Assembly (NCBI GenBank): GCA_029262055.1
Contig: JAJDAD010000002.1
Coordinates: 1-64,000 of the forward strand
DNA length: 64,000 nt
Reading direction: 5' to 3'
DNA from: Candidatus Zhuqueibacterota bacterium
Lineage (GTDB): Bacteria > Zhuqueibacterota > Zhuqueibacteria > Oceanimicrobiales > Oceanimicrobiaceae
Shown: in pieces, positions 31,879-39,777 of the stretch
Numbering within the stretch: position 1 is the stretch's first letter
Layout of the letters: the number at the start of each line of letters is the position of its first letter
Program-made: the position numbers and the translations under genes
Notes under the pieces: model-generated
What the model saw: only the letters and a program-made list of their open reading frames with translations
What the model was told of the DNA's origin: nothing
The model's database searches: none

Positions 31879-33303
31879 CTATCCGAAGATCAGCTTCAAC
31901 AAGTAGTAAATGCTGATTGCCCCTATTGCGCCCGCTGGAATAGTAATCACCCATGAAATGACAATATTGGTCACCACGCGTAAGTTGAGGGCGCCGAGGC
32001 CCCTGGCCAGACCAACACCCAGGACACCGCCGACAAGCGTATGCGTCGTACTTATCGGTAGCCCTAGTTTTGACGCGAGTACAATCGTTGTCGCTGCCGC
32101 AAACTCAGCCGCAAATCCCCGCGTGGGAGTAAGCTCGGTTATTTTCTTCCCAATAGTCATCATCACTCGCCAGCCCCAGGTCGACAGGCCAACAACAATT
32201 CCTACGCCGCCAAGACCCAAAACCCAAAGTGGGACTGCTGAGTTCATGGCCAGTTGCCCGGTCTGCAAAATGACGATTACGGCGGCGAGAGGACCTACCG
32301 CGTTCGCAACGTCATTTGCGCCATGTGCGAAAGCGACAAAAGCCGCACTCAGAATTTGCAAATAAACGAAAATGCGTTCGACAGCTTTGTACTCTGCACT
32401 GCCCTGTTCAACTGATGTTCCTTCCTCAATTTCGCTGTTGAGCGTCTCAAGATTACGCACCATGGTCGAAAGTTGTTCTCTCAATTCCCCCTGGACTTCA
32501 CCCGATGCCTTCTGGAGGTGCTGTAGTGCTTTTGTTACACCGCGCGTCACGGTCGCTGATTGCCTCATCACCACTCGCTCTTGAATCTCAGTGACCTTGA
32601 TTCGCTTCACCAGCATGGCACTGATCAGGGCCGCGACAACTCCAACCGCGACGGCTACCAGTATAGCCTCTGAAAAGGCCAAGTCTAATTTAAGATTCTT
32701 CAAACCTTTGAAAACCATGGTCAAAGTCAGGACCAGAAAGACGACGAACACCAGGTATGGCGTGACTTTTTTTGCTCTGCCAACCGGGTCATTGCTATAA
32801 TAGATCAGTCGACGCAGGAAGGTGAACAGTGTAAAGGAGATAGTCCCGCACATCAACGGCGAGACAACCCAACTAGCAACGACTGAACCGACCTTCCCCC
32901 AATCAGCAGCGGCCATTCCGCCATACATCACACCAAACCCCAGAACGGCGCCAACTATCGAGTGTGTTGTGGAGACCGGCCACCCAAAATAGGACGCGAC
33001 TTGCAGCCAGACAGCAGCCGCCAGGAGCGCGCCAATCATGCCGTATACCAGGTCCAGTTCGGAGCCCAAAAACAAATCCGGACTGATTATCCCCTTCCGA
33101 ATTGTCTCAGAAACATGCGTGCCGACCAGGAATGCACCAGCGAACTCGAGAAAGGCAGCCATAATCACTGCCTGTTTGACGGTCAACGCACCGGAGCCAA
33201 CCGATGTGCCCATTGCGTTGGCAACATCGTTGGCGCCAATACTCCACGCCATGTAGAACCCACCGCAAACCGCTATGATTAGGAGTATAGATTCGACTTC
33301 CAT
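31879..33303 (-). CDS. pit: PiT-family inorganic phosphate transporter
   Basis: The 474-residue protein has two homologous transport halves carrying the PiT signature: SIGANDVANAMGTSVGSGALT near residue 21 and AHGANDVANAVGPLA near residue 325. A hydrophilic central loop of roughly 110 residues (about 215-315) lies between them. Each half ends in the PisTTH-type motif (PVSTTHSIVGAVLGFGV and PISTTHTLVGGVLGVG). It carries phosphate or metal-phosphate by a cation gradient. It is the last gene of the - strand phosphate locus and follows the DUF47 gene by 33 bases, a pairing commonly seen for low-affinity uptake. Confidence 0.92.
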   Translation of the reverse strand: MEVESILLIIAVCGGFYMAWSIGANDVANAMGTSVGSGALTVKQAVIMAAFLEFAGAFLVGTHVSETIRKGIISPDLFLGSELDLVYGMIGALLAAAVWLQVASYFGWPVSTTHSIVGAVLGFGVMYGGMAAADWGKVGSVVASWVVSPLMCGTISFTLFTFLRRLIYYSNDPVGRAKKVTPYLVFVVFLVLTLTMVFKGLKNLKLDLAFSEAILVAVAVGVVAALISAMLVKRIKVTEIQERVVMRQSATVTRGVTKALQHLQKASGEVQGELREQLSTMVRNLETLNSEIEEGTSVEQGSAEYKAVERIFVYLQILSAAFVAFAHGANDVANAVGPLAAVIVILQTGQLAMNSAVPLWVLGLGGVGIVVGLSTWGWRVMMTIGKKITELTPTRGFAAEFAAATTIVLASKLGLPISTTHTLVGGVLGVGLARGLGALNLRVVTNIVISWVITIPAGAIGAISIYYLLKLIFG

Positions 33304-33336: not shown

Positions 33337-34014
33337 CTATTTGAGTTCCAGTAGCATTCGGACCCGGTTGGCCAATTTTTCGGATAAATTACCTAGCGCT
33401 GCAATTGATTGTAGTATTCCTACCCAGAGTGTGAAGCTAGTATATGAAAATTTGTCGTCCATATTATAGAGCTTTCTGCTCAAGTCTCTTTGCAGGATGT
33501 CAGCCTCATGCTCCAGAAAGGCGACGTGATCTATCATTTCCTGGACTTTTTCGGCTTCTTTTCCTCCAAAAGAGGTCGTCAGGAGTTCATCCATTTCCCG
33601 GATTATCTTGTGCGCCTCAGCCACAGCTTCGAAGTTTTTGTCCAGGAATTTTTGCAGCTCAGCGTCCATTCCCTCCAACGGCGCAATTTTCTTCATCGTC
33701 ATCAACACACCGATATCTTCAGCTTTATCGGCAATGTCGTCCTGCAAAGAGAGAATTTCCAGCAAGTCTCCTCGATTAACAGCTAGAAAGAGGCCCTTGG
33801 GGAGGTTATTTCTAATTTCATTTTTTGTCAGGTCGGCTGCGTGCTCCAATTCCGATATCTCATCAGCTAACTTGCTTATCTTATCGTGATTTCCAGCACG
33901 GTAGGCGTCAAACATTTCATGCACCTTGTCGACGCACGCCGCCACCTTCTCCATGTGTGATTGTAGTGGTGAGAAAGGCGACCTTGCAAACAAATTACTG
34001 AATACACTCATCAA
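33337..34014 (-). CDS. DUF47 / PhoU-like phosphate-transport regulator
   Basis: The 225-residue all-helical protein resembles the DUF47 (TIGR00153) family, which pairs with PiT carriers. FARSPFSPLQSHMEKVAACVDK at the start, EISELEHAADLTKNEIRNNL with a metal-binding ExxxD-type motif, DLLEILSLQDDIADKAEDIG, and the second acidic pair VAFLEHEADIL are visible. It probably modulates the adjacent PiT transporter in the cytoplasm. A separate PhoU lies 4.6 kb upstream, so the locus encodes two PhoU-like regulators. Confidence 0.87.
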   Translation of the reverse strand: MMSVFSNLFARSPFSPLQSHMEKVAACVDKVHEMFDAYRAGNHDKISKLADEISELEHAADLTKNEIRNNLPKGLFLAVNRGDLLEILSLQDDIADKAEDIGVLMTMKKIAPLEGMDAELQKFLDKNFEAVAEAHKIIREMDELLTTSFGGKEAEKVQEMIDHVAFLEHEADILQRDLSRKLYNMDDKFSYTSFTLWVGILQSIAALGNLSEKLANRVRMLLELK

Positions 34015-34343: not shown

Positions 34344-35111
34344 TTACCCGTATCTGCCTTCAATATACTCGGCGGTCTTTGGGTTCTGCGGTGTAATAAA
34401 TAAGTCCTTTGTGCGCGAATGCTCCATAATTTCGCCGAGAAGCATGAAAATACACTCTTTGCTGACTCGCCGCGCCTGGGCCATATTGTGCGTCACGATC
34501 AAGATCGTATAACGCCCAACTAAGCTCACCATAAGTTCCTCTACTGCGCGAGTTGCCTCTGCGTCCAGGGCCGAACACGGCTCATCCATGAGAATGACCT
34601 GTGGTTTTAAGGGGAGGAGGCGGGCAATGCAAAGTTTCTGTTGTTGTTCGAGCTGCAGAGTTGTTGCCCGTACCTTAAGCTTATCCTTTAGGTCATCCCA
34701 GAGAAAAACTTCCCGCAAAGATTTTTCGACTATTTCATCACTTTCCGATTTCTTCAAAGAAGTCCGGCTTGAGTGAACCCGCAAACCAAAAACAACGTTC
34801 TCATAAACCGAAATTGGCAACGGATTGGGGCGCTGGAATACCATGCCGACGGACTTTCGCAGCTCCGGAAGTGAGACATCGGGATCGTAAATATTCTTTC
34901 CAAGAACTTTGATCTCGCCGGTGGTTGTGACATTGCCATAACGTTCGTTGACGCGATTGAAAGATCGCAGAAGTGTAGTCTTGCCGCACCCGGATGGGCC
35001 GATCAGGGAGGTAATTATGCCATCCACCACATCAACGCTGACGTTGATGAGGGCCTGGAAGTCACCGTACCAGAGGTTGAGCCTCTCCGTTTGAATGCTG
35101 TAAGTGCTCAT
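34344..35111 (-). CDS. pstB: PstB phosphate ABC transporter ATPase with degenerate signature motif
   Basis: The 255-residue protein is a PstB: Walker A GPSGCGKTT (38-46), Q-loop Gln93 in VFQRPNPLPIS, Walker B VILMDEP (Glu177), SALD D-loop and H-loop His208 in VTHNMAQARR. However, the ABC signature LSGGQ is replaced by LQLEQ (about 152-156). In an ABC dimer the signature serves the partner's ATP site. The adjacent paralogue has an intact LSGGQ but lacks the Q-loop Gln and H-loop His. The two are expected to form a heterodimer with one good site. Its ATG overlaps the stop of that paralogue by four bases. Confidence 0.88.
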   Translation of the reverse strand: MSTYSIQTERLNLWYGDFQALINVSVDVVDGIITSLIGPSGCGKTTLLRSFNRVNERYGNVTTTGEIKVLGKNIYDPDVSLPELRKSVGMVFQRPNPLPISVYENVVFGLRVHSSRTSLKKSESDEIVEKSLREVFLWDDLKDKLKVRATTLQLEQQQKLCIARLLPLKPQVILMDEPCSALDAEATRAVEELMVSLVGRYTILIVTHNMAQARRVSKECIFMLLGEIMEHSRTKDLFITPQNPKTAEYIEGRYG

Positions 35112-35863
35112 CCAAAATTTCCGTGCACGTAGTCGTAGGTCATTTTCTGTGCGGGGTTATCCGAAAACATCACTTCATTGGAATCGATTTCAATAAGATC
35201 ACCATTGAGAATGAAGGCCGTGCGATTACACAGCCGCCGGGCCTGCTGCACCAGATTCGTAACGAGAATGATGGTCACCTCGGAACGTAGCTCCTTCAGG
35301 ACGTCCTCAATGCGCATGGTGGTGACCGGATCGACTGCAATGGAGAATTCATCCAGACAGAGGATTTCCGGCTGGTGAGACAGCGCCCTGGCGATGGTCA
35401 GTCGTTGCTGTTGTCCGCCGGAGAGCTTGGTGCCGAGACTGTCCAGCCGGTCTTTGACTTCGTCCCACAACGCCGACTGAATCAGGCAGCGCTCCACCAG
35501 TTCGTCTAGCTTCGACTTGTCGCGAAGTCCGGCAGCACGCGGCGCGAACGCGACATTGTCATAGATCGACAGCGGCAGGCCGACCGGCAGGGGGAAGACC
35601 ATTCCAATTTTTCGGCGCAATTCGTTGACGTTCTTTATGCTTTGGATATTGTCGCCGTCAATTGTTACCGTGCCTTCGACACGGGCTCCGGGTATAAACT
35701 CGATCGTCCGATTGATCACCTTTAGGAGCGTGGTCTTACCTGACTGGGCCGGACCGACGACGCCCAGTATTTCGTTTTTGTGCACATCAAAAGAAACGCC
35801 TTTGAGCGCCTCCTTTTGGCCATAACGTACACGTAAATTGGAAATCTCTATTTTCTTCGCCAC
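35108..35863 (-). CDS. PstB-like ATPase with degenerate Q- and H-loops
   Basis: The 251-residue protein is a PstB-like ABC ATPase: Walker A GPAQSGKTT (37-45), intact signature LSGGQQQRLTIARAL (about 147-161) and Walker B ILCLDEF (Glu172). The Q-loop reads VFPLPVGLPLS, so the Gln is Pro91. The H-loop reads VTNLVQQARR, so the catalytic His is Asn203, and the usual SALD D-loop is IAVD. These losses would weaken hydrolysis at its own nucleotide site while its signature still serves the partner PstB. Encoded between pstA and pstB in the same operon, four-base overlap with pstB. Confidence 0.83.
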   Translation of the reverse strand: MAKKIEISNLRVRYGQKEALKGVSFDVHKNEILGVVGPAQSGKTTLLKVINRTIEFIPGARVEGTVTIDGDNIQSIKNVNELRRKIGMVFPLPVGLPLSIYDNVAFAPRAAGLRDKSKLDELVERCLIQSALWDEVKDRLDSLGTKLSGGQQQRLTIARALSHQPEILCLDEFSIAVDPVTTMRIEDVLKELRSEVTIILVTNLVQQARRLCNRTAFILNGDLIEIDSNEVMFSDNPAQKMTYDYVHGNFG

Positions 35864-35879: not shown

Positions 35880-36818
35880 TTACCATTTTTTGCGAGAACG
35901 CAAATAGACCCTGAGCACGATGGCCAGAGCGTTAACCAGGAGTACCGTGCCTAACAGTACAACTGCCGTTCCATACGGCAACGCTTCCGGTACGTTGGGA
36001 ACTTGCGTTGAGATAGTAAAAAGGTGCATGGACAGGGCCATACTCTGATCGAACAGTCCGTATGCGAAGATATCGCCTTTCTCGATCGCCTTAAAGAAAA
36101 CAGCGCCGGTAAACATTATCGGAGCTGTTTCACCGGCCGCCCGGGAGACCTGCAGAATGATGCCCGTCAGGATGCCACTGATAGAGTTAGGCAACACAAT
36201 GCGTCTGATCGTCTGCCAGCGGGTCGCCCCGACATTCCAGCACGCTTCGCGGAAGGCTGTGGGCACGGCGCCCAGAGCTTCCTTGGTGCTGGCTATGATC
36301 ACCGGCAATGTCATGATCGCCAGGGTCAGCGAGGCGGCCAGAATGGAGCGGCCCATACCGGCAAAGAGGACAAACGCGCCAAGTCCGAAGAGCGCGTGCA
36401 CTATGCTTGGCACGCCGGCAAGATTGACAACAGCCAGATTTATGATACGCGTGAACCAATTTTCCCGTGCGTACTCGTTCAGGTAGACCGCAGCCAGAAC
36501 GCCTATAGGAGCAGACACAAGAAGTGAGATCCCCACCAGGTAGAGTGTGCCCAAAAAAGCCGGCCAGATGCCGCCCGCCCGCATGCCACGCACGGGGTTG
36601 TCCAAAATGAAGTTAATCGACAATATGGGGGCAGCTTTGTAGATGAGGTAGCTGACGATTAGAAGAAGCGGGAAAATCATGAGCAATGTCATTGTCAGAA
36701 AGGTAAGTCTGGCAAGCTTTTCCGTGAACTTCTTCCTTCTGACCAGGGCTGTCTCCCTGAATCTTGTCTGCGGATCTAGTGTCACCGGGTTCGGCGAGGT
36801 TGTGGCTGACGTACTCAT
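35880..36818 (-). CDS. pstA: Phosphate ABC transporter permease PstA
   Basis: The 312-residue inner-membrane protein has six or seven hydrophobic helices. The cytoplasmic coupling segment lies at about residues 205-225 (EACWNVGATRWQTIRRIVLPN), the EAA-type loop of PstA that contacts the ATPase. ILQVSRAAGETAPIMF is a typical PstA segment. It forms the membrane channel with PstC. Its start overlaps the end of pstC by four bases, and the PstB-like ATPase follows 17 bases downstream. Confidence 0.9.
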   Translation of the reverse strand: MSTSATTSPNPVTLDPQTRFRETALVRRKKFTEKLARLTFLTMTLLMIFPLLLIVSYLIYKAAPILSINFILDNPVRGMRAGGIWPAFLGTLYLVGISLLVSAPIGVLAAVYLNEYARENWFTRIINLAVVNLAGVPSIVHALFGLGAFVLFAGMGRSILAASLTLAIMTLPVIIASTKEALGAVPTAFREACWNVGATRWQTIRRIVLPNSISGILTGIILQVSRAAGETAPIMFTGAVFFKAIEKGDIFAYGLFDQSMALSMHLFTISTQVPNVPEALPYGTAVVLLGTVLLVNALAIVLRVYLRSRKKW

Positions 36819-37708
36819 TTATTGCGGATTCCCTTTACGACCAAATCTGATGCCAGGTTGACAATAAATGTGATCGTAAAAAGTAAGATGCCAATGATGA
36901 ACAGAACCTGGTAGTGGTCGGAGCCTACCGGCGCCTCACCTAACTCTGCAGCGATGGTCGCTGTTAGAGTTCGGACCGAGTCGAGAATATTAGAGGGAAA
37001 TTGCACGGAATGCCCGGTGGCCATCAACACGGCCATGGTTTCACCGACGGCCCGGCCGATGCCGAGCAAAACGGCGGCCAACAAACCGTTCTTGCCCGCC
37101 GGTAAAAGAACCCGGTAGATGACCTGCCAACGCGTGGCCCCGAGTGCCTCTGCAGCCTCGCGGTATGAGTCGGGAACGGCTTTAAGCGCGTCCTCTCCGA
37201 TAGAGACGATAATCGGCACACTCATCAAGGCAAGAATGATTCCGCCATTCAAAACGGTAAGTCCGATGGGCGCATCGAAGAGATCAATGATAACGCCGTT
37301 CATCACAGTCAAACCGATAAATCCCCAAACCACCGACGGAATGGCGGCGAGCAACTCGATGACGATCTTAAACGTTTCCTTCAGCTTCGGGCCACAGAAC
37401 TCCGAGACGAAGATTGCGGCACCGAGACCAAACGGGACAGCTATTGCCATCGAGAGAGCAGTCACGCTGGCGGTGCCGGCAAGTAAGGCCAGTACACCAT
37501 AGCGTTTGTTGCTGACGGATGTTGGGAACCACTCCGGACTGGTGAGGAATTGGCCAATGTCCAGTCCGGAGAAAAGGAAACCGGAGCCTTCCCGGAAGAC
37601 AAAGAAGAAAATACCAAAGACAAAAAGAATCGCACTGAAGCCACAGAACCGGATAATGCCTTCAATAATCCGCTCTGTGACAGACTCTAAGCGGCTGCGG
37701 TTGATCAT
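36815..37708 (-). CDS. pstC: Phosphate ABC transporter permease PstC
   Basis: The 297-residue membrane protein has about six helices. The coupling loop YREAAEALGATRWQVIYRVLLP (about residues 185-206) and GIGRAVGETMAVLMATGH are PstC hallmarks, and PSVVWGFIGLTVMNG in the third helix region also fits. It forms the phosphate channel with PstA. The ATG follows directly on the pstS stop, and the 3' end overlaps pstA by four bases, so pstS-pstC-pstA are tightly coupled. Confidence 0.9.
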   Translation of the reverse strand: MINRSRLESVTERIIEGIIRFCGFSAILFVFGIFFFVFREGSGFLFSGLDIGQFLTSPEWFPTSVSNKRYGVLALLAGTASVTALSMAIAVPFGLGAAIFVSEFCGPKLKETFKIVIELLAAIPSVVWGFIGLTVMNGVIIDLFDAPIGLTVLNGGIILALMSVPIIVSIGEDALKAVPDSYREAAEALGATRWQVIYRVLLPAGKNGLLAAVLLGIGRAVGETMAVLMATGHSVQFPSNILDSVRTLTATIAAELGEAPVGSDHYQVLFIIGILLFTITFIVNLASDLVVKGIRNK

Positions 37709-38647
37709 TTAGTTTGAGCTATCTGAGCTTTCAGTCATGGGAGCACCGGTCTCGAGAGGCACATAGCCGTTTGCCGAGACGATTTTTTGGCCCGCAGCGG
37801 ACAGAATCCAATCCAGGTATTCTTTCGCTTTCCCGGTTGCTTCACCCAAAGAGTAAATGTAAAGCGGCCGGGCAATCGGGTAGTCGCCGCTCAGAGCATT
37901 GTCAACATTGGGCGAGAATGCCTGTTCTCCGGCCTTTTTGGCGACGTCCAGGACTTTGACGTGGTCGGTGCGGTAGCCCATGCCACTATAGCCAATGGCG
38001 CACGGGGTCTTCTCGACCAACTCGACCACATCTTTGGAACCATGCAAATCGCGTGATCCTAACTTGAAGTCGGCGGTGTTTCCCAGCAAGGCTTCACGAA
38101 AGTAGTGGTAGGTACCGGAATTAGATTGGCGGCTGATTCGAATGACCTCATCGCCCGAACAGGTGCTATGACTGATTCCGAGCTGCGACCACTTGGTAAT
38201 ATTGCCGCCCTCGCCATAGATATTTGCCAACTGCTCGATGCTGATTTCATTCATGGGGTTCTCTTCATGAACGTAAACCGCAAGGGCGTCATAGCCAACG
38301 ATTAGCTCAACCGGGGTTTTGCCGGTATTGGCTTTGGCGCGTTCAATCTCACTCGCTTTCATTTGCCGGCTGCAATTGGCGATGTCGACAGTACCGTTAA
38401 TCAATGCGGCGATTCCTGTTCCGGAACCCCCACCGGAGACTTCAACGGAGACCGTAGGCTGGACGTTGGCGTACTCTTCGGCCCAGGCTTGTGCCAGATT
38501 CACCATGGTATCCGACCCGGCATTCTGGATAACAGCCTTGTCGCTGGTCTCTGTCTCACTGCTATCACCCCCGGAACCACATCCAGCTACTGCGATCATA
38601 AGGGTGAAGATTACAAACAGGTAGAGCAATTGCTGACGCTTGGACAT
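37709..38647 (-). CDS. pstS: Phosphate-binding lipoprotein PstS
   Basis: The 312-residue substrate-binding protein has a lipobox (AVAGC, Cys23), so it is anchored in the periplasm. Binding-site segments are GSDTMVNLAQAWAEEY near residue 45, SGGGSGTGIAALINGTVDIANCSR, and RQSNSGTYHYFRE. The ligand-binding Ser/Arg/Asp pattern of PstS is visible in SGTG and SRxxNSGT. It delivers phosphate to PstC/PstA. A GGAGG ribosome site lies at the very end of the upstream phoU-fusion gene. Translation therefore probably follows that gene. Confidence 0.9.
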   Translation of the reverse strand: MSKRQQLLYLFVIFTLMIAVAGCGSGGDSSETETSDKAVIQNAGSDTMVNLAQAWAEEYANVQPTVSVEVSGGGSGTGIAALINGTVDIANCSRQMKASEIERAKANTGKTPVELIVGYDALAVYVHEENPMNEISIEQLANIYGEGGNITKWSQLGISHSTCSGDEVIRISRQSNSGTYHYFREALLGNTADFKLGSRDLHGSKDVVELVEKTPCAIGYSGMGYRTDHVKVLDVAKKAGEQAFSPNVDNALSGDYPIARPLYIYSLGEATGKAKEYLDWILSAAGQKIVSANGYVPLETGAPMTESSDSSN

Positions 38648-38649
38648 TA

Positions 38650-39777
38650 TTATCCTCCTCTTTTCTTACTTTTCTTGCTAAGCTCGTTCTCGCCACTAAT
38701 CGCCTGTATGAGACCTCGTATATGCGTATCCAGGTATTTGTACGTTTTTTCGTATGCAGTGTGGATTTCTTCTTCTGATCCTGTTGCTTTTGACGGGTCT
38801 TTAATGTTCCAACGAATCCGTACCGTCTTAGACGGTGGCGGTGGAAAGGCTTCTTCAGCCTCTTTACAGAGGGTGACGATAGCTGTGTAATCACCCAAAT
38901 TCAATGTCTGGTGCAAATATCTGGACGTTTGCTTTGAAATGTCAATCCCTTTTTCCGCCATAAACTTTATGGTTTGCGGATCGATTGGTTTGGGTGAAAG
39001 GCCTGCGCTGCTGAACTTGAATCCTTTGACGCCGAGTGAATTGGCTATTCCTTCTGCAACCTGGCCTCGACATGAATCGCGCTCATCGACAAAGAGAATG
39101 CGTACAACATCCTTGCCTTCATGCTTGATATTCTCACCGGTGCACATGTAAAGCACTTCTTCACAAATGTTGGTGGCTTGATCCGCAACTCTTTCAAATC
39201 GGCTGGCTATGATCATCAAAGGCGGCAGGACTTCAGAAGGCATCTTACGCTCATCCCGAAGGGTCACCAATTCGTTGTGAATTTCATAACGAACTGCATC
39301 AACTTGCTTCTCCAGGTCCAGGGTTGATTTCGCAAGCTCTGGATTTTCTTCTTCAAATGCGAGAAGTGCGTTGCGCAGCATCGGGATGGACAAATTTGCG
39401 ATATCAGAGAATTTTTCGTAGGAGGGTTGCGGCTCGACTTCGCTTAACTTGAGAACTTGACGGGCAACGCTCTCTGCATAGTCACCGACTCGTTCAAGTT
39501 CGTTATTGATTTTGATCACGGAATAGACAAATCGCAAATGGCTGCCGGCCGGCTGCTGCCGCACCAGGAACTCAAGGCAGAGTCCATCCAATTCCTTTTC
39601 CAATTCATCAATTTCACGATCCCGAAGAATCACTGCATAGGCAGCTTCCTGATTCATCTCCACAAGGGCGTTTAAGCTGTTGCTGACAGCTTGCTCCGCC
39701 AAGGATCCCATCTTTATGACCTTGTCACGAATTTCAGTGATATCTTTTTGTAAAGTCTTTTCTAAACGAGAGGGCAT
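38650..39777 (-). CDS. phoU: PhoU fused to a LMW-phosphatase/ArsC-like domain lacking the catalytic Cys
   Basis: The 375-residue protein joins two domains. Residues 5-218 are a PhoU with both helix bundles and the metal-binding motifs NNELERVGDYAESVA (near 91) and FERVADQATNICEE (near 194). Residues 224-360 match arsenate reductase/low-molecular-weight tyrosine phosphatase: RILFVDERDSCRGQVAEG and IRWNIKDPSKATG near 327. In that family the nucleophile is the first Cys of the CX5R loop. Here it is Asp231, while the loop's Cys236 and Arg237 and the general-acid Asp327 remain. The domain may therefore bind phosphate or a phosphoryl group without catalysis, giving PhoU a sensor. It is first in the pst operon. 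Confidence 0.85.
   Translation of the reverse strand: MPSRLEKTLQKDITEIRDKVIKMGSLAEQAVSNSLNALVEMNQEAAYAVILRDREIDELEKELDGLCLEFLVRQQPAGSHLRFVYSVIKINNELERVGDYAESVARQVLKLSEVEPQPSYEKFSDIANLSIPMLRNALLAFEEENPELAKSTLDLEKQVDAVRYEIHNELVTLRDERKMPSEVLPPLMIIASRFERVADQATNICEEVLYMCTGENIKHEGKDVVRILFVDERDSCRGQVAEGIANSLGVKGFKFSSAGLSPKPIDPQTIKFMAEKGIDISKQTSRYLHQTLNLGDYTAIVTLCKEAEEAFPPPPSKTVRIRWNIKDPSKATGSEEEIHTAYEKTYKYLDTHIRGLIQAISGENELSKKSKKRGG

Follow-up and report, generated by a model that had tools for sequence, protein, structure and literature searches.

A PhoU fused to an ArsC-like domain opens a pst operon

The window, by which we mean the whole 64,000-nucleotide stretch of contig JAJDAD010000002.1 analysed here, carries on its minus strand a phosphate transport operon with the following features:

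38650..39777, minus strand: PhoU-pseudoArsC fusion, ORF of 375 residues with an ATG start (Pfam, NCBIfam, AlphaFold model)
39124..39765, minus strand: PhoU part, residues 5-218, two PhoU domains (profiles and fold)
38698..39108, minus strand: pseudo-ArsC domain, residues 224-360 (profiles and predicted fold)
39067..39087, minus strand: degenerate P-loop DERDSCR, residues 231-237, with Asp231 replacing the nucleophilic Cys
37709..38647, minus strand: PstS, phosphate-binding protein, first gene downstream of the fusion (TIGR02136, above cut-off)
36815..37708, minus strand: PstC permease (TIGR02138, above cut-off)
35880..36818, minus strand: PstA permease (TIGR00974, above cut-off)
35108..35863, minus strand: PstB1 (TIGR00972 best match, below cut-off; motifs)
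34344..35111, minus strand: PstB2 (TIGR00972 best match, below cut-off; motifs)
33337..34014, minus strand: DUF47/PhoU_div protein, next gene downstream, not constant in the system
31879..33303, minus strand: PHO4-family (Pit-type) phosphate transporter, next gene downstream, not constant in the system

The order is fusion-PstS-PstC-PstA-PstB1-PstB2, then the DUF47 protein and the PHO4 transporter, so that the operon is opened by the fusion, which we call dead, as we do its relatives without the nucleophilic Cys. A sequence-only reading of this DNA had proposed a PhoU joined to an ArsC/LMW-phosphatase domain at 38650-39777, and this was borne out, on the minus strand, by the ORF, by Pfam and NCBIfam profiles and by fold matches to 4q25 and 1jl3. 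Pfam finds PhoU twice (E 1.1e-37) and LMWPc (PF01451) at residues 227-354, the latter spanning model positions 1-141 of 144 with 39.7 bits against a cut-off of 23.2. The NCBIfam model phoU_full (TIGR02135) scores 174.8 bits, above its curated cut-off of 130.25, and arsC_pI258_fam (TIGR02691) matches with E 2.5e-24, yet its 86 bits lie far below the cut-off of 174.3. In the AlphaFold model (23-sequence alignment; mean pLDDT 88.4), residues 6-215 match the three-helix-bundle fold of PhoU 4q25 (Z 31.0, rmsd 1.2, 210 residues aligned), and the comparison with ArsC that had been suggested as a check returned a whole-domain ArsC fold, residues 224-361 matching B. subtilis ArsC 1jl3 (Z 22.1, rmsd 1.7) and the domain also matching ArsC 1jf8 (Z 21.4); the arrangement of the two domains relative to each other is not fixed in this model (pTM 0.59). 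Within the PhoU part, E95-R96-G98-D99 and E195-R196 are invariant across the 23 aligned fusions. By profile and predicted fold, the gene is a real fusion, in which a complete PhoU precedes a complete ArsC/LMW-phosphatase fold.

The ArsC domain has lost its catalytic residues in most fusions

In the window protein the P-loop reads D231-E-R-D-S-C236-R237, with Asp at position 231; the P-loop Arg (Arg237) is kept and Asp327 is present, all as read earlier from the letters, and of the two further redox positions the second retains its Cys (Cys304) and the third is Phe311. Set against the ArsC family, the domain has the fold and the P-loop Arg, and lacks the catalytic Cys, the third redox Cys and a TIGR02691 score above cut-off. 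A survey of the fusion and of the Asp substitution, also suggested by the earlier reading, yielded 67 full-length ORFs, which reduce to 51 distinct fusions after removal of 16 duplicate loci, with the partial ORFs L138 and L054 excluded. The nucleophilic Cys is missing in 46 of these 51 (Asp in 35, Ala in 6, Ser in 4 and Glu in 1), and Asp231 is therefore not a sequencing oddity. The six Ala rows are all from Poribacteria, and an acidic residue directly follows Asp231 in 22 of the 35 Asp-bearing dead fusions. A later find with Ser at 231 (L239) stands outside the 46.

Across the 46 dead fusions, the P-loop Arg is present in 22, Cys236 in 31 and the Asp327 equivalent in 37, and the second and third redox Cys of ArsC are found in 8 and 1, respectively. 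With Cys at 231 in 0/46, the earlier conclusion that the domain should be unable to form a phosphocysteine holds. Cys236 was considered as a substitute nucleophile and rejected, as it begins no CX5R (residue 242 is Glu) and is Cys in just 31/46. The five intact fusions (L055, L139, L140, L141 and L154) retain the nucleophilic Cys, the P-loop Arg, the second and third redox Cys and the Asp.

The sequence-only reading had also raised arsenate mimicry as a theme, and this found no support. A second, standalone ArsC encoded in the window's genome has all the motifs, and no arsenic family was detected among the eight neighbouring proteins scanned with Pfam. Acr3 occurs in none of the fusion operons; it is present in 16 of the 25 fusion genomes searched, and its nearest copy lies about 13 kb away (G030).

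The dead domain evolves under constraint

Simple NG86 counting, for which synonymous sites near saturation in more distant pairs, gave dN/dS values of 0.10-0.21 for the dead domain in 21 of the 22 close pairs listed and of 0.06-0.13 for the PhoU part of the same 22 pairs. The outlier (0.38) is a pair with L182, whose frame continues into PstS. The dead domain is under strong purifying selection, and the sequences indicate that function persists in it with catalysis lost. Mean majority-residue frequency in the dead fusions is 0.56 for the ArsC part versus 0.65 for the PhoU part. Conservation of the seven-residue loop equals the domain mean in the dead family (0.55 vs 0.55), whereas the 13 intact ArsC rows show a clear peak there (0.80 vs 0.56 for the domain). 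The best-conserved positions of the dead domain (Phe255, Ser257, Ala258, Phe272, Trp323 and Pro328) are scattered across it, and no new invariant polar cluster was found in the 46 dead rows. Average conservation of the loop, together with scattered conserved positions, speaks more for a domain that binds or docks than for an active site. Asp231 (35/46) lies above the loop's average conservation, which a purely structural role leaves unexplained.

In L182 and L214 the fusion frame continues into PstS, giving an ORF of about 660 residues, with raised dN/dS in the ArsC part of L182; a frameshift, an assembly error and a three-part fusion are candidate explanations.

Gene order around the fusion is conserved

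Among 45 loci with a pseudo-ArsC fusion, 42 are informative for gene order (L038, L054 and L214 are not). PstS lies directly downstream of the dead fusion in 41 of the 42, and PstS-PstC-PstA-PstB1-PstB2 is complete and in order in 37. Of the exceptions, L046, L189 and L203 run out (the genome of L203 has a PstB1/PstB2 pair on another contig), L207 has PstS upstream of the fusion, and L211 has DUF47 and Pit (PHO4) genes between PstB1 and PstB2, the same pair that in the window comes just after PstB2. A canonical PstS-PstC-PstA-PstB-PhoU operon (L209) is present in the window's genome as well.

When aligned with solved phosphate-binding proteins, the operon's PstS shows no gaps in the SGT region, and from its sequence it looks like a working phosphate binder. 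A canonical phoU lies directly upstream of the fusion in L183, L185 and L186, and both genes are preceded in L183 by one for a Porin_O_P protein. Together, the SGT alignment and the porin ahead of the L183 operon make phosphate the likely substrate. When up to 300 upstream bases were scanned with a Pho-box consensus, L044 was the one locus that clearly beat its shuffles; the best window site (8/14, p 0.94 versus shuffles) gives no support for a Pho box there.

PstB1 and PstB2 show complementary motif losses

The main result comes from 34344-35863, beyond the 38650-39777 stretch of the sequence-only reading, which did not mention the operon or its two ATPases. Both ATPases of the window score below the TIGR00972 cut-off of 343.2 (281.4 for PstB1 and 316.6 for PstB2). 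In PstB1, LSGGQ is intact, the Q-loop Gln has become Pro (VFPLPVGLP) and the switch His has become Asn (VTNL); in PstB2, Q-loop and switch His are intact and the signature LSGGQ has become LQLEQ. We scored these motifs by alignment columns in 169 PstB rows, in which the window's PstB1 and PstB2 are each counted twice (also as L215). PstB1 rows carry Pro/LSGGQ/Asn in 44/44 and PstB2 rows Gln/broken signature/His in 43/43 (38 with LQLEQ and 5 with variants), whereas canonical PstB rows carry Gln/LSGGQ/His in 82/82 and complementary losses in 0/82. A mixed pattern occurs in none of the 169 rows, all of which retain the Gly-Lys of Walker A and the Asp-Glu of Walker B. PstB1 and PstB2 each still form a single clade in a FastTree tree built without the motif columns. 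Nine PstB1 loci from a second phylum sample show the same motif pattern. In four loci (L230, L231, L236 and L237) the PstB1 frame, counted from stop to stop, is 527-676 residues long, possibly through an N-terminal extension or a join with PstA.

The two ATP sites of an ABC dimer are each built from the Walker motifs, Q-loop and His of one subunit and the signature of the other. The cis losses in PstB1 (Q-loop Gln, His) and the trans loss in PstB2 (signature) therefore fall in one shared composite site, and this confinement implies an obligate PstB1-PstB2 heterodimer. If the two paired, the other composite site would be fully consensus; PstB1 or PstB2 alone would have two bad ATP sites.

The fusion and PstB1 occur together across phyla

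Within the window's phylum, 16 of 82 genomes carry the fusion; all 16 belong to the window's class, and the fusion is absent from the seven other genomes of the window's family. PstB1 (E <= 1e-75) is present in 15 of the 82, all 15 among the 16 fusion carriers; in the sixteenth, the fusion sits on a 3.3-kb contig that ends after PstC. In a second phylum of 345 genomes, for which the best 7 PstB1 candidates per genome were scored, PstB1 and the fusion each occur in 9/345, in the same nine genomes. The co-occurrence is almost perfect, and the fusion may be linked genetically to the transporter as such and not specifically to the heterodimer. A separate canonical PhoU is present in 10 of the 16 own-phylum fusion genomes, so cross-talk is possible.

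In other phyla (E <= 1e-38, with some intact-Cys fusions and partial ORFs included), fusion matches were obtained in 8/387 genomes of the phylum of L044 (Verrucomicrobiota), 8/297 of the phylum of L033, 6/84 of the phylum of L041 (Poribacteria) and 9/345 of the sample around L053; since the L033 and L053 samples have genome handles in common, we treated them as one phylum. A genome scan also found the fusion in Calditrichota and Thermodesulfobacteriota, and records labelled candidate division KSB1 hold fusion proteins identical to members of the window's class. Of 546 matching plasmid records, none has a single stretch covering 80% or more of the fusion. The closest relatives of the window gene, L033 and L035, are about 63% identical to it, against 62% for the best within its own class; with L033 and L035 as close as the relatives from its class, horizontal transfer is plausible.

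The ArsC domains of the 46 dead fusions form one clade (SH-aLRT 100, and 99 with the motif columns dropped), and the five intact-Cys fusions group with standalone ArsC. In the PhoU tree, dead fusions stand apart from canonical PhoU rows, save for the truncated fusion L054, which falls among the latter, and the intact fusions L154 and L139/L141 lie near the dead clade on long branches flagged by the program; L148 also has a very long branch. The dead fusions may derive from an intact PhoU-ArsC fusion or from a separate origin.

A probable lopsided importer with a dedicated PhoU

We think it probable, on balance, that the operon encodes a distinct Pst variant, with the fusion gene in first place as its regulator, and that in this variant a lopsided PstB1/PstB2 ATPase works with a dedicated, non-catalytic docking PhoU. 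In this model PstB1 and PstB2 would pair obligately, giving one consensus ATP site, made up of the Walker A/B motifs, Q-loop and His from PstB2 and the LSGGQ from PstB1, and one degenerate site. We infer heterodimer assembly, a single hydrolysis site and binding of the fusion to the PstB1/PstB2 ATPase from the motif losses, operon and co-occurrence described above. PhoU-pseudoArsC would be the dedicated PhoU of this importer, and its dead ArsC fold would serve, without enzymatic activity, as a conserved domain for docking or allostery, fitting PhoU to a lopsided ATPase in place of the symmetric PstB homodimer. The contact partner of the dead domain is the least certain part of the model, and the PhoU of the fusion might act mainly on PhoR. 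A bolder version, which we put forward tentatively, is an obligately asymmetric importer whose two ATP sites differ in role, one being hydrolytic and the other regulatory; the pseudo-ArsC domain would dock at or gate the degenerate PstB1/PstB2 side and would thereby control transport and signalling from a single face of the transporter.

The sequence-only reading had instead seen in the dead domain a built-in anion sensor, whose pocket would bind phosphate or arsenate and report to PhoU. Arg237 and Asp327 of the window protein, with their counterparts in 22/46 and 37/46 relatives, the fold match over the whole ArsC domain and the operon's identity as a phosphate importer are all consistent with this. 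The proposal is nonetheless weakened by the same survey: with the P-loop Arg missing in 24/46, a shared phosphate or arsenate pocket is doubtful, an Asp carboxylate sits where the anion would be cradled in 35/46, loop conservation has dropped to the domain average, and ars genes were not found in the operon, so that we consider a sensor unlikely. The prevalence of Asp at 231, followed by an acidic residue in 22 of 35, could also point to new chemistry, with Asp231 as an oxygen nucleophile or metal ligand in the manner of HAD or receiver proteins, making the domain a metal-dependent phosphatase or a phospho-acceptor; the LMW-type phosphatase YwlE has been crystallised as its Cys-to-Ser variant C7S, with the active-site serine phosphorylated (PDB 4kk4). 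But six members have Ala (the Poribacteria rows) and four have Ser at this position, none of the loop's other acidic residues is invariant and the loop shows no special conservation, and we regard such chemistry as very improbable. Still less credible is a functionless, decaying passenger: the catalytic residues are gone and the ArsC part is more variable than the PhoU part, but dN/dS of about 0.1-0.2, on which decay was rejected, and retention of the domain across several phyla speak against it.

Of the two ATPases it could be said that they do not pair at all, one being the working enzyme and the other a separate regulator or a spare. Such a division would fit L211, in which DUF47 and Pit genes separate PstB1 from PstB2, and the unequal roles of the two adjacent PstB proteins of Enterococcus faecalis, as described in PMC12096839. 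A homodimer of PstB2 would lack LSGGQ, and one of PstB1 the Q-loop Gln and His, at both sites, and the complementary losses are fixed, in 43 rows of PstB2 and 44 of PstB1; we hold unpaired ATPases to be improbable, and the lopsided heterodimer remains our preferred reading.

Relation to known systems

PhoU is characterised by binding PstB and PhoR and by repressing the Pho regulon. Like PhoU (TIGR02135/PF01895), the fusion scores above the curated cut-off, has the three-helix-bundle fold and lies within a pst operon; unlike it, it bears a C-terminal pseudo-ArsC domain and is the first gene of its operon, not the last. That domain shares the whole-domain fold of thioredoxin-type ArsC (TIGR02691; 1jl3, 1jf8) but, in the dead family, is without the nucleophilic Cys (46/46) and most of the redox Cys, and is fused to PhoU. 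The transporter resembles PstSCAB importers in that PstS, PstC and PstA exceed their NCBIfam cut-offs and PstB models match both ATPases best, and differs from them in having two complementary-degenerate ATPases, both below the PstB cut-off, instead of one. By its motifs, the pair would resemble heterodimeric ABC transporters such as BmrCD, in which one composite site is consensus and the other degenerate. The best-studied of these are exporters, unlike the fusion-linked Pst, which is a phosphate importer.

Two adjacent pstB genes are also known as PstB1/PstB2 in E. faecalis and PstBA/PstBB in B. subtilis. The E. faecalis pair is the nearest published case, and both its proteins have intact motifs, unlike the window pair; its authors state that the relative contributions of tandem pstB paralogs were unpublished before their study (PMC12096839). 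An excerpt of the B. subtilis paper tabulates PstBA/PstBB and names a degenerate site for RbsA and NupO only (PMC11466899). We found no paper on a PhoU-ArsC fusion or on a complementary-degenerate PstB pair in the open-licence PMC literature; every part comes from a known family, and it is the combination that was not found there.

It has long been asked how PhoU communicates with the Pst ATPase, and the symmetry of a PstB homodimer makes an answer difficult to obtain. With two distinguishable ATPases, each disabled in a motif of its own and the pair strictly tied to its own modified PhoU, the site that drives transport and the face that PhoU contacts become testable. The family is also a clean and widespread pseudoenzyme case in the ArsC/LMW-phosphatase fold, for which the intact-Cys fusions are natural controls. 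To judge from their complete set of catalytic residues, the latter would be apparently active PhoU-arsenate reductase fusions, and the four whose flanks were read (L198, L199, L200 and L208) follow a single consensus PstB, which is the ordinary place of phoU.
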